This document shows, piece by piece, positions 15,242-22,901 of a DNA stretch of 48,929 nucleotides. The notes beneath the pieces are model-generated. The model was not told the DNA's origin, did not search any database, and worked only from the letters and a program-made list of their open reading frames with translations. The DNA is taken from contig BJGX01000003.1 of NCBI GenBank assembly GCA_014191035.1, forward strand, positions 1 through 48,929. The letters are read 5' to 3'. Position 1 is the stretch's first letter. Each line of letters opens with the position of its first letter. Both the position numbers and the translations under genes were made by a program. The DNA comes from Candidatus Saccharimonadota bacterium. Lineage in GTDB: Bacteria; Patescibacteriota; Saccharimonadia; CAILAD01; BJGX01.

Positions 15242-15280
15242 AAAATTCCCCCAGAGCCATCTATGTATAAATAGCTGTGG
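15242..15280 (-). terminator. Terminator of the 33-aa ORF transcript
   Basis: On minus strand CCCCCACAG...CTCTGGGGG followed by AATTTTTT. Confidence 0.65.
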
Positions 15281-15325
15281 GGGAGCGACAACCGCTAAGG
15301 CCTAAACCTTAGCGTCGCCCCATAA

Positions 15326-15427
15326 CTAGATGTAAATGATAATTAGACCGACAAGAACAGCTGCAAAGATGAGTACGGCAGAGCCGATAAATCCATCGCG
15401 CAGTTCCTTTTTGGTAGTACTTTTCAC
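15326..15427 (-). CDS. 33-aa single-TM microprotein, not in the ORF track
   Basis: GTG start after GGAGGAAAT SD: M(V)KSTTKKELRDGFIGSAVLIFAAVLVGLIIIYI*; own promoter and terminator. Confidence 0.65.
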   Translation of the reverse strand: MKSTTKKELRDGFIGSAVLIFAAVLVGLIIIYI

Positions 15428-19906: not shown

Positions 19907-19935
19907 TTGACAAAAAATAAAACTTAGGCTATAAT
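19907..19935 (+). promoter_or_regulatory. Consensus sigma70 promoter
   Basis: TTGACA - 17 nt - TATAAT. Confidence 0.9.
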
Positions 19936-19941
19936 CTTTTT

Positions 19942-20309
19942 GTTGTTCGACGACTATGACCCTTAGGAGGGCCTTATGGGTGGCGTATAGCCAACCGTCC
20001 CCTCTGGGGGAGTCGTTGGGGCCTGGGGGGCTCGTAGGCCCCCCAGGTTACCCGGCTTCGGGTGCAACATAGAAGAAGGGAAGAAGGATGTCTGGATACT
20101 GATATCCTGTAAGAAGAGTGAAAGCTCTATTCCTTGAACAGCGTCGATTTGTGTGTCTGAATAAGACGCTAATATCGACTATTTACCCCGCACAGTTTCT
20201 TAGCTGAGTGGGGTGGCACATGGCCGGGGGAGGGCGTAAAAACCCTTTCCCGGCCAGCCAAACCTCTTAATAAGTCACTATTTGATAACACCTAAAAGGG
20301 TGTTTTTTT
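19942..20309 (+). ncRNA. Unidentified large structured ncRNA (~370 nt)
   Basis: Between a consensus promoter and a terminator; no convincing ORF. Stems: TTCGACGACT/AGTCGTTGGG, CCTGGGGGGC/GCCCCCCAGG, ACCCG/CGGGT, GAGT-GAAA-GCTC, CCCC..GGGG, GGCCGGG..CCCGGCC. Confidence 0.8.
20288..20309 (+). terminator. Rho-independent terminator
   Basis: ACACC-TAAAA-GGGTGT followed by TTTTTTG. Confidence 0.85.
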
Positions 20310-20406
20310 GTTGTATTTTTTCATTTATTTTAAATTATAAAACAATAAAATATATCTATTTAACACATATAATAAGCTAATTATATAAATAAACTGCCAA
20401 AAAGTG

Positions 20407-20435
20407 TTGACAAAAAATATAATCTATGATATCAT
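20407..20435 (+). promoter_or_regulatory. Sigma70 promoter of the structured tmRNA operon
   Basis: TTGACA - 17 nt - TATCAT, followed by hairpins GTCAG..CTGAC and GCCGG-TTCG-CCGGC. Confidence 0.85.
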
Positions 20436-20532: not shown

Positions 20533-20742
20533 ATGAAGCGTGACCACCGAATCCCAGACCAGCCCCAGAAGTTCCGAATGGACATCTGGCTGGTCGAAGT
20601 CAAGGAGACTGGAGAACCCATTGTGGTGCTGAACAAGACGTTCATGGAGCTCAACACTCTCATGAATGAGGAGTTCGGTATCAACGGATGGGAAATCCAT
20701 GATCGGGAATCGACCGGCATGCTGACCGCCCAGGCGGGTTAG
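20533..20742 (+). CDS. 69-aa hypothetical protein (ORF1)
   Basis: AAAGGAGGTGAT SD before ATG: MKRDHRIPDQPQKFRMDIWLVEVKETGEPIVVLNKTFMELNTLMNEEFGINGWEIHDRESTGMLTAQAG. Confidence 0.75.
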   Translation: MKRDHRIPDQPQKFRMDIWLVEVKETGEPIVVLNKTFMELNTLMNEEFGINGWEIHDRESTGMLTAQAG

Positions 20743-20750
20743 TATGGCTT

Positions 20751-20804
20751 CGGGGCCTATGGAGAAGGCCTGGCAACAGAAGAGTCGCCTAGGCGATTTA
20801 CTCC
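20751..20804 (+). ncRNA. Pseudoknot module, copy 1 (8 nt after ORF1 stop)
   Basis: CGGGGCCTATGGAGAAGGCCTGGCAACAGAAG; stem1 GGCC/GGCC, loop GGAG pairs with CTCC 20801-20804, hairpin AGTCGCC/GGCGATT inserted. Confidence 0.75.
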
Positions 20805-20898: not shown

Positions 20899-20957
20899 CG
20901 GGGCCTTTTATGGTAAGGCCCGGCAACACAAGCAATCGTTTTATGTTTGCAGCCCCG
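20899..20957 (+). ncRNA. Pseudoknot module, diverged copy
   Basis: CGGGGCCTTTTATGGTAAGGCCCGGCAACACAAG; stem1 GGGCC/GGCCC; possible stem2 ATGG/CCGT. Confidence 0.55.
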
Positions 20958-21045
20958 TCCGGGGGTAACCCCGGGTGAGTGATAGTCCGAGGATGTGTGT
21001 CCTCGCTGATGAGTCCAAAAGGACGAAACTTGCTTCAAACAAAAC
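20938..21045 (+). ncRNA. Hammerhead ribozyme, type III-like (core 20984-21030)
   Basis: AGTC | CGAGGA-TGTGTG-TCCTCG | CTGATGA | GTCC-AAAA-GGAC | GAAAC. Possible distal stem III GTTTT-AT-GTTTG with CAAAC-AAAAC. Predicted cleavage after C20987. Confidence 0.9.
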
Positions 21046-21131
21046 TTTCCCCGCGTTGGCAATTTTAATACGCCCTTATAGCGCATGTGTGGAAAGGTAT
21101 GTGGTTAGCACCATCAGATGCACATTTACAC

Positions 21132-21180
21132 CTGGAAGTCTCGTACTTCCAGCATAGGATCTAAAGAACTAGGTTTTATG
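21132..21180 (+). ncRNA. Tandem-hairpin module, diverged copy C (upstream of tmRNA)
   Basis: CTGGAAGT..ACTTCCAG then CATA...TAGGTTT-TATG. Confidence 0.5.
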
Positions 21181-21200
21181 CCGGAAGTACGCTTCCTAAC

Positions 21201-21554
21201 GGGGCCGAACGGTTTCGACACGGAGAAAGCAAAGTTTTTTCGCAACCCGAGTTGCTCAGACTCGTTAAACAGGGCAACCCTAATAAACGCCGCCTGATAG
21301 CACGTTTATTGTCATCCGCTCGGCGGAAAGGACGGGGCTTAGTCACTTAGCCTGGCAACAGAAAAGGGACTGACGGTAGCAAAGACTACTGACCTATCTG
21401 GAAAGACAGATTGACCTCAGCGAAAGTGCTGGCTGCTGGCCGAAAGGTACAGGCGACCCGTCGCCCTGACTGCAGATGAGTCAAAATACCGGGAATGGTT
21501 GTAGCGGAGTGCTTATGCGCTTCGTGGACGGGGGTTCGATTCCCCCCGGCTCCA
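21201..21554 (+). ncRNA. ssrA: tmRNA (transfer-messenger RNA)
   Basis: 5' GGGGCCGAACGGTTTCGACACGG and 3' GGACGGGGGTTCGATTCCCCCCGGCTCCA; 7-bp acceptor pairing including G-U; tag frame ends GCC GCC TGA TAG; several pseudoknots. CCA not encoded. Confidence 0.97.
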
Positions 21555-21606
21555 CATGGCCCCTTCTAGTGGGGTAGGCAGGGCTGGCTGTAGCCCATTT
21601 AGACGA

Positions 21607-21655
21607 CTTGCAGGTTGACTCTGCAAGGGCTCCTAGTTCGAAAGAACAAAGTCAA
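21607..21655 (+). ncRNA. H-type pseudoknot with inserted GNRA hairpin
   Basis: CTTGCAG-GTTGACT-CTGCAAG; loop TTGACT pairs with AGTCAA 21650-21655; inserted GTTC-GAAA-GAAC. Confidence 0.65.
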
Positions 21656-21713
21656 AAAGGAGAGAAAGACTAGACAAGCTTGCCGCTTGTGATTTCTCAC
21701 CAAACAGCACACC

Positions 21714-21780
21714 CTCGCGGGTTCCATTGGGACTCGCGAGATCCCACCAGAGTTTATGAATATTCGTAGGTTTTGGTGGG
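21714..21780 (+). ncRNA. Tandem-hairpin module, copy A (upstream of ORF2)
   Basis: 12-bp hairpin CTCGCGGGTTCC..GGGACTCGCGAG, then CCCACCA-GAGTTTATGAATATTCGTAGGTTT-TGGTGGG. Confidence 0.7.
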
Positions 21781-21835
21781 GAAAACTTCCTCAGCGGTGG
21801 CAGCCGTCTCGAACTCTCGAAAGGAGGTGAGAAAT

Positions 21836-22180
21836 ATGCACAAGATCAAGTTGTTCATGGCTATGGTCGTGGTCGCCGTCGGGGTTCTCCTGACTGGCTG
21901 TGGCAATTCTGCACAGCAGATCGCCGACGACTTCCCCTGCTCCCAGAGCATGAAGACGTCGACCACGGCCGGCCTGGACCTGATTGTGGAGAGCACGTTC
22001 CCGCGTTGGTACGTGTCCAACTCCCGGTCCTTCTTCGGCGAGTCCTACGACTTCAAGAAGGAGTGGCGCCGTCAGATCGTGATTCGTTCGGGAGTTTCCG
22101 AACCAATCGTGGTCGACACGGAACTGAAGGTGCCTGCAAGGTGCTCGAAGTCCGACGAAGCCAAGGCCAAGTTGAACTGA
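21836..22180 (+). CDS. Small putative lipoprotein, 114 aa (ORF2)
   Basis: AAAGGAGGTGAG SD; N-terminus MHKIKLFMAMVVVAVGVLLTGCGNSA has a lipobox-like LTGC. Confidence 0.8.
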   Translation: MHKIKLFMAMVVVAVGVLLTGCGNSAQQIADDFPCSQSMKTSTTAGLDLIVESTFPRWYVSNSRSFFGESYDFKKEWRRQIVIRSGVSEPIVVDTELKVPARCSKSDEAKAKLN

Positions 22181-22187
22181 CTTAGAT

Positions 22188-22236
22188 CGGGGCCTATGGA
22201 GAAGGCCTGGCAACAGAAGTTACTAGCTAACACTCC
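22188..22236 (+). ncRNA. Pseudoknot module, copy 2 (7 nt after ORF2 stop)
   Basis: Exact 32-nt match to 20751-20782; GGAG pairs with CTCC 22233-22236; inserted hairpin GTTA..TAAC differs in sequence from copy 1. Confidence 0.75.
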
Positions 22237-22239
22237 CAC

Positions 22240-22311
22240 GCGCTTCTAGCTCAACGGTAGAGCACCGGACTTTTAATCCGTAGGTTCTGGGTTCGAATCC
22301 CAGGGGGCGCA
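22240..22311 (+). tRNA. tRNA-Lys (anticodon TTT)
   Basis: Acceptor GCGCTTC/GGGGCGC, anticodon loop CTTTTAA, T arm CTGGGTTCGAATCCCAG; CCA not encoded. Confidence 0.95.
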
Positions 22312-22314
22312 CTA

Positions 22315-22374
22315 TCCCATAAGCTTCGGCTTGTGGGACCACCAAAGTTTATTTAATAAAGTAGGTTTTGGTGG
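22315..22374 (+). ncRNA. Tandem-hairpin module, copy B (after tRNA-Lys)
   Basis: TCCCATAAGC-TTCG-GCTTGTGGGA, then CCACCA-AAGTTTATTTAATAAAGTAGGTTT-TGGTGG. Confidence 0.7.
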
Positions 22375-22380
22375 AACTTA

Positions 22381-22407
22381 AAAACCCCTCAGATGAGGGG
22401 TTTTTGC
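22381..22407 (+). terminator. Rho-independent terminator of the structured operon
   Basis: AAAACCCCTC-AGAT-GAGGGGTTTTTG. Confidence 0.88.
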
Positions 22408-22409
22408 TT

Positions 22410-22901
22410 TTACTTTACTGTTCCTTGCATGTCCATCGGGGATGGGTTGGGCTGCTTATTGTTTAGCTCTTGTTTGAATATATCAAGCTCATTTGGAGAT
22501 AGATCATCAAGATATTTTTTAACATTCGCTCTGTAATCAGCTGCTTTTTTTTCCATATCATCGAGGTTTTCAGTGGTCGAAGGGCTTTGATTTTCGTTAG
22601 AGAAATTATTAAAGGGAGGATCGTTCGGTGGCGGTGGTGCAGCAGCTGCAATTTCTTGTTTGGGCTCATCAGCAGGCTTTTCATAAATTTGCGGTTGGGC
22701 CATATTCATATTTCCATTTTGCATCATATTTGGCGCCTGAATCGCGTTGGGTTGCTGTAGAATTGCCTGATTTTCAGGCTGTTCTGGTTGCATATTGAGC
22801 TGAGCTTCTGGTGAGGCTGGCTGCTGGGTCATCTCGGGTGATTGCATTGGTTGACCCATTTGCATGCCCATATCTTGCATTTGTTGCGCTTGTGGTTGCA
22901 T
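22410..22901 (-). CDS. Gln/Met/Pro-rich low-complexity protein
   Basis: MQPQAQQMQDMGMQMGQPMQSPEMTQQ... with GGAG SD. Confidence 0.7.
   Translation of the reverse strand: MQPQAQQMQDMGMQMGQPMQSPEMTQQPASPEAQLNMQPEQPENQAILQQPNAIQAPNMMQNGNMNMAQPQIYEKPADEPKQEIAAAAPPPPNDPPFNNFSNENQSPSTTENLDDMEKKAADYRANVKKYLDDLSPNELDIFKQELNNKQPNPSPMDMQGTVK

Follow-up and report, generated by a model that had tools for sequence, protein, structure and literature searches.

What do the tandem hairpins that recur at gene borders in this saccharibacterial DNA mark off, and what could they be for? In the window (the whole stretch of 48,929 nucleotides that was analysed), the original prediction had described two copies (A and B) of a tandem-hairpin module and a diverged copy (C) ahead of a tmRNA, and had read them as processing or protein-binding sites.

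The module and its fold

Two covariance models were used: R1, built from five copies (A, B and one each from genomes G014, G010 and G006), and R2, built from 17 R1 matches. Copies A and B were located where the original prediction had put them, and the parts of the three copies, with their hairpins named hp1 to hp3, are as follows.

21130..21192, + strand: copy C, a probable degenerate module upstream of the second tmRNA (tmRNA2); no score with R2, positional homologues 25-40 bits
21714..21740, + strand: hp1 of module A, 12 bp; from folding and the hp1 survey
21743..21780, + strand: hp2 of module A, 17 bp, G.U-rich; R1 60.9 bits, R2 55.3 bits
21777..21793, + strand: hp3 of module A, TGGGGAAAACTTCCTCA; excludes the base of hp2
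22315..22338, + strand: hp1 of module B, 10 bp; from folding and the hp1 survey
22339..22374, + strand: hp2 of module B, 16 bp, a terminal module without hp3; R1 52.7 bits, R2 47.9 bits

The 36-nt hp2 copies of A and B are 78% identical. Their 24-nt inserts had been correctly described, as had the two compensatory changes between them. Shuffled sequences fold much worse than either module (z of -6.1 for A and -7.2 for B). The 6x6 internal loop that had been proposed, also as a recognition feature, is ruled out by energy and covariation: the RAGTTT and AGGTTT strands pair throughout (R-U, A-U, G.U, U.G, U.G, U-A), the continuous helix gains 7.7 (A) and 7.6 (B) kcal/mol over the looped form, pair probabilities along this stretch stay at 0.85 or above, and two-sided changes among relatives fall in these very columns. 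Therefore hp2 is a helix of 16-17 bp closed by a 4-nt loop. Its centre is symmetric, reading 5'-AGNUU-3' on both strands, with G.U and U.G pairs on either side of a variable pair, and its loops resemble AUAU or UAAU.

The claim that C is a diverged copy fared less simply, since R2 finds nothing there and the sequence folds as a single long hairpin. However, G010 (40 bits), G014 (27 bits) and G006 (25 bits) each have a module in the corresponding position ahead of their homologous tmRNA, and for this reason copy C is probably a degenerate module.

Distribution and covariation of the RNA family

The search of CPR genomes with a covariance model, which had been suggested as a check, showed that the module family occurs across Saccharimonadia and also in a second CPR family. 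With R2, 32 of the 298 genomes of the class, only about 10% of those sampled, were matched at E<=1e-3 (about 0.3 expected by chance), with some 45 matches; elsewhere in the phylum, matches were found in G470 and G364 (CPR family f78), among others. The class in question is probably Saccharimonadia, as two TM7-specific primers fit a 16S sequence of G039 without a mismatch. Three matches were discounted as due to chance or unclear: one within the 16S rRNA of G423, one in an rRNA spacer of G039 where a tRNA ends at its 3' side, and an antisense one on a short contig of G036. No Rfam 15 family covers A, B or C at its gathering score or at credible E-values. Simpler searches gave little: a 14-mer scan of genome contigs returned chance matches only, a strict pattern search matched G006 alone, and two patterns run on viral contigs hit 72 loci, none of which passed R2.

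In the alignment of the family (A4), two-sided changes occur at 15 of the 17 pairs and 95% of cells are paired, which none of 500 shuffles equalled, and sliding the pairing partners destroys the signal; A4 was fitted to the structure, and the unfitted five-copy alignment gives the same picture. The original prediction had named homologous loci without the pairing as the evidence that would speak against it, and what the homologues display is pairing kept with covariation. On the sense strand of hp2 we counted 45 G.U cells against 5 A.C cells, so it is the sense strand, and hence an RNA, that is under selection. We are nearly certain that the module is a genuine RNA element and that it stands at the borders of RNA units.

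Architecture of the units

At most loci hp2 closes the 3' end of a unit of 300-700 nt, in which an AT-rich promoter is followed by an SD-led ORF of 40-240 aa, hp1 and hp2. The first hairpin, a GC-rich one that hp2 usually follows, is absent from the covariance model and hence can serve as an independent test. In 35 of 52 matches hp2 is directly adjoined by a hairpin of at least 6 bp, as compared with 17% of random positions. In several matches without hp1, an inverted repeat of 9-13 nt links the 5' leader with the sequence that immediately precedes hp2 (as with GACAGAGTAGT/ACTACTCTGTC); single repeats are not always significant against shuffled tails, and their exact abutment on hp2 recurs. 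The third hairpin (GGGaaauNCCC) is found where an SD-led ORF starts within ~55 nt and is mostly absent from terminal modules (p about 1e-5 to 7e-5, with the ~55 nt threshold chosen post hoc). Since hp3 and the base of hp2 share one G run, the two are mutually exclusive.

An SD-led ORF precedes hp2 in 39 units. Its GC3 exceeds that of the flanking genes in 36 of them (0.70 versus 0.51, p=4e-10) and is reversed or equal in the other three, some units having little excess, and TTA is rarer in unit ORFs (0.15% versus 0.99%). Judged by these compositional measures, the unit ORFs have actinobacteria-like codons. They are mostly orphans, for which a PHROG search returned only weak or generic matches, and the majority of units contain neither a tmRNA nor a tRNA. 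The window carries a further, separate unit on its other strand, where the GGTTGTCG repeat abuts hp2.

15243..15285, - strand: hp2 of the separate unit; R2 29.2 bits
15286..15458, - strand: rest of this unit, with a 33-aa ORF (15326-15427) between the inverted repeats CGACAACC and GGTTGTCG

In the two f78 genomes, belonging to two genera, hp1-hp2-hp3 modules occur in islands (L320 in G470, L321 in G364) whose ORFs are small and mostly GC-rich. These islands sit between groEL and an LTD-like gene, the site being shared and the ORFs different.

The island in the window

In the window the module separates the ORF1/hammerhead RNA, a second tmRNA, ORF2 and an extra tRNA-Lys, in an island laid out as follows.

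20407..20435, + strand: promoter-like site (TTGACA..TATCAT) of the island transcript, repeating the site at 19907-19935
20533..20742, + strand: ORF1, 69 aa, with a strong SD (AGGAGGTG); from the sequence
20750..20782, + strand: D1 element, GGGGCC..GGCCTGGCAACAGAAG; identical at 22187-22219, also within tmRNA2
20980..21034, + strand: putative type III hammerhead ribozyme (a type defined by a CUGAUGA..GAAA core and three helices); Rfam RF00008 at 41.9 bits, below the gathering score of 48.5
21201..21557, + strand: tmRNA2, the second tmRNA of the genome, tag GCC GCC TGA (Ala-Ala), CCA not encoded; RF00023 at 101.4 bits
21836..22180, + strand: ORF2, a 114-aa lipoprotein-like protein; GC3 0.82 versus 0.36 in flanking genes
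22187..22219, + strand: second D1 copy, identical to 20750-20782 by sequence comparison
22240..22312, + strand: tRNA-Lys2 (UUU), CCA not encoded; closest external match in Acidimicrobiales
22380..22412, + strand: intrinsic terminator of the island transcript, AAAACCCCTCAGATGAGGGGTTTTTGC; from the sequence

The order rpsT-TrmB-island-DHH-truB-rpsO-pnp is common to the window genome (G000), G001, G006 and G010, and its TrmB side is also present in G014. A syntenic position in five genomes means that this is an old saccharibacterial locus; a recent insertion or a contaminant is rejected as the origin of the island by the same synteny. By inspection, G014 has homologues of ORF1, just upstream of its GGCAACAGAAG element, and of ORF2, in the same place and with a GC3 of 0.81. 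At this syntenic locus the homologous ORF2 copies of two families keep a GC3 of about 0.8, and high expression was rejected as its cause in the window because rpsO and rpsT have values of only 0.30-0.32.

Other RNA motifs recur along the islands. The D1 motif stands directly after upstream ORFs in the G014, G006 and G001 islands, and the tmRNA-type GGCAACAGAA motif was found outside tmRNA in four of the five islands; in the window, the tmRNA-type pseudoknot-like motif GGGGCC..GGCCTGGCAACAGAAG occurs at 20750-20782, ~20900-20932, 21332-21364 and 22187-22219. Hammerhead cores are present in all five islands (window, G001, G006, G010 and G014) and in no other part of the 1.25 Mb scanned on both strands; they lie at 20980-21034 in the window, at 2736 and 5150 in L199, at 4714 in L218, at 4554 on the reverse strand of L219 and at 883 in L220. 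Between the hammerhead and tmRNA2, L218 (4800-6100) and L199 (5150-6700) contain a long, intricately structured RNA with recurring hairpins, which could represent a new class of large ornate RNA. A separate promoter-driven, GC-rich and highly structured transcript with its own terminator was also observed at 19907-20310 of the window, with no credible match in Rfam.

A second tmRNA and a tRNA without encoded CCA

What the modules bound had been missed by the original prediction, namely a second, host-type tmRNA and a tRNA of the same kind. By its RF00023 score and its alignment to an Acidimicrobiales tmRNA, tmRNA2 is a tmRNA, a type defined by tRNA-like ends, PK1 and a tag ORF with a resume codon, and its tag ORF is only Ala-Ala. 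It occurs alongside a native tmRNA in G000, G006, G010 and G014, the native one of the window genome lying on another contig (G000:C4:18455-18847, tag APAYAPAFA), and it adjoins modules in the other three genomes as well. Its identity to the Acidimicrobiales tmRNA is 61-65%; no native saccharibacterial tmRNA, nor any other compared, exceeds 48.5%. The tree groups the four tmRNA2s with one Acidimicrobiales tmRNA (support 100/99), from an actinobacterial sample of four genomes of which one, a MAG, carries the signal. In Acidimicrobiales the tag is the usual degron, DNKSSVALAA, whereas all four tmRNA2s read GCC GCC/GCT TGA (Ala-Ala-stop) at the aligned resume position. Similarly, tRNA-Lys2 is 89% identical to its Acidimicrobiales match, above every native saccharibacterial tRNA compared.

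CCA is encoded by nearly all native tRNAs and by all ten native tmRNAs, but neither by tmRNA2 nor by tRNA-Lys2. The CCA-adding enzyme family PF01743 is absent from 13 of 13 Saccharimonadia genomes and present in the two f78 genomes and in 10 of 14 control bacterial genomes; this argument concerns one Pfam family, and another enzyme could serve. Because the f78 genomes carry both units and PF01743, the module is not limited to CCA-lacking hosts. In G001 (C10:1790-2270, L341), four clustered tRNAs without encoded CCA were observed in a GC-rich transcript upstream of the trigger-factor gene, two of which look unfit for normal decoding because their anticodon loops have 6 nt. A second tmRNA with neither degron nor CCA, in an organism with no detected CCA-adding enzyme, calls for an explanation.

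Discussion

The boundary role of the module is well supported. As far as position is concerned, the original reading of processing or protein-binding sites at gene borders stands: the modules are at the 3' end of RNA units, with hp1 on the 5' side and hp3 when another ORF comes next. Binding or cleavage is the part that we infer: the module is probably a place where the RNA is cut or bound, with hairpins on its flanks that protect. The mutual exclusion of hp2 and hp3, together with their positions, suggests a cut-and-cap element. According to this model, hp1 would cap the 3' end of the upstream RNA, a dedicated protein or an RNase specific for double strands would bind the hp2 duplex and probably cut it, and in polycistronic transcripts hp3 would re-form at the 5' end of the downstream RNA. 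An RNase III gene is present in G014. The idea of a riboswitch, in which hp3 competes with the base of hp2, is retained only as a suggestion within this model.

The RNAs of the window may well be made for action in an actinobacterial host cell and not in the Saccharibacterium. This is the reading that best joins the observations, because it covers the missing CCA and its enzyme, the actinobacterial types of tmRNA and tRNA, the removed degron and the codon use, and from these features it is quite possible, if short of probable, that the cargo RNAs act in the host. A boundary element for RNAs meant for an actinobacterial partner is our best explanation as a whole, and we hold it tentatively, at a little less than even confidence. 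In its most developed form, a bacterium-to-bacterium RNA effector system in which a degron-less actinobacterial tmRNA, CCA-less tRNAs and mRNAs with actinobacterial codons would be cut, capped or sorted by hp1-hp2-hp3 and work in the host, it is conceivable but somewhat doubtful. The literature searched held no pairing of a Saccharibacterium with Acidimicrobiia, and foreign origin by horizontal transfer would likewise yield host-like sequence.

The main rival is a purely internal element with cargo of foreign origin, that is, a local processing or stability element whose RNAs are used only inside the Saccharibacterium and whose host-like cargo consists of domesticated phage or host genes. We consider it a serious possibility, though not a probable one. 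The structure and position of the boundaries need no transfer to explain them, the terminator after B and the promoter-like sites before units make ordinary transcription units, and phages common to Saccharibacteria and Actinobacteria have been predicted (PMC10746230), which offers a route for actinobacterial genes. It accounts less well for a tmRNA2 and a tRNA-Lys2 without CCA where no CCA enzyme was detected, or for a GC3 near 0.8 that persists at a single syntenic locus in the ORF2 copies of both families. As to phages, their records contain no match to ORF2, the similarity of their tmRNAs is confined to ~31 nt of the T arm, and the PHROG matches are weak or generic.

Could the module instead work as DNA? 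In that case hp2 would be where mobile cassettes recombine or transpose, in the manner of integron attC or of IS200/IS605, and the units would be the cassettes that are swapped. Some loci have that appearance, since in G041 and G218 (L200, L206) the place and the unit ends are equal and the ORFs unrelated, as if the ORF had been swapped, tandem units occur (607-bp in G015, 691-bp in G470), and the ORFs are mostly orphans, some of them flanked by inverted repeats. We nevertheless find this improbable, as the sense-strand bias of 45 G.U to 5 A.C is the mark of an RNA, hp2 stems vary within one genome, the alignment has no attC R-boxes (RYYYAAC/GTTRRRY) and the island keeps a fixed syntenic place. 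A processive antitermination element of the put or LoaP type, by which RNA polymerase passes terminators in long structured transcripts, is very unlikely: tandem hairpins do lie within such transcripts here, and some copies (A and those of G006 and G014) are in leaders before ORFs, but most copies are at unit 3' ends, B is directly before a terminator, and the LoaP element is a different one, a single UNCG-tetraloop leader hairpin (PMC12691694). That these are ordinary mRNA 3' hairpins or terminators with nothing special about them can scarcely be credited. They do follow stop codons, and some T-rich stretches stand behind hp2 (e.g. G120), yet there is no consistent U-tract, strand letters and wobble positions are conserved beyond pairing, and B is followed by a separate terminator.

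If boundary elements for host-directed RNAs are what the modules are, a parasitic Saccharibacterium would possibly have an RNA-based weapon or tool against its host, and a tag on each unit of host-type RNAs would give a handle on how Saccharibacteria manipulate the bacteria they live on. Even if no RNA leaves the cell, there is here an undescribed, covarying RNA boundary element in Saccharimonadia and one other CPR family. The literature searched on tmRNA, CCA addition, integron cassettes and noncoding RNA in Saccharibacteria and on hammerheads in Patescibacteria contained no description of the module or the island, and we know of no precedent for the system that the module bounds.

Comparison with known systems

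The double-stranded sites for RNase III in pre-rRNA and polycistronic operons border stable RNAs and genes. The module resembles them as dsRNA at borders, at times with long-range pairing of unit ends, but it differs in its conserved short helix with fixed wobble positions, in the independent hairpin that precedes it and in an optional hp3, and its cleavage is predicted. The put RNA of HK022 also has two adjacent stem-loops, which are near the promoter and act directly on RNA polymerase, whereas the module is found at 3' ends and is set apart by position in most copies. The attC site of integrons, an imperfect hairpin with RYYYAAC/GTTRRRY boxes at the stem base, follows the 3' end of a small ORF in cassettes arranged in tandem; an imperfect hairpin 3' of a small ORF and tandem units are the points of likeness, while the module, on reading A4 column by column, has no R-boxes and shows the wobble bias of an RNA strand and a syntenic locus. 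As an intrinsic terminator hp2 was rejected, being neither GC-rich nor followed by a consistent U-tract, and B has its own terminator downstream.

Among its cargo, tmRNA2 has the tRNA-like ends, PK1 and pseudoknot series of the Acidimicrobiales-type tmRNA, from which it differs in a tag ORF of Ala-Ala-stop, in the CCA that is not encoded and in its residence in a saccharibacterial genome that has a tmRNA of its own. The dfn/mln RNA element bound by LoaP consists of just one hairpin, with a UNCG tetraloop, in long-operon leaders (PMC12691694); it is like the module as a hairpin RNA recurring in long transcripts, but the module has two or three hairpins, mostly at unit 3' ends, with an hp2 lacking UNCG, and so falls outside the LoaP definition. 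Taken simply as a hairpin element at boundaries, the module adds a new RNA family to a general kind that is already known.
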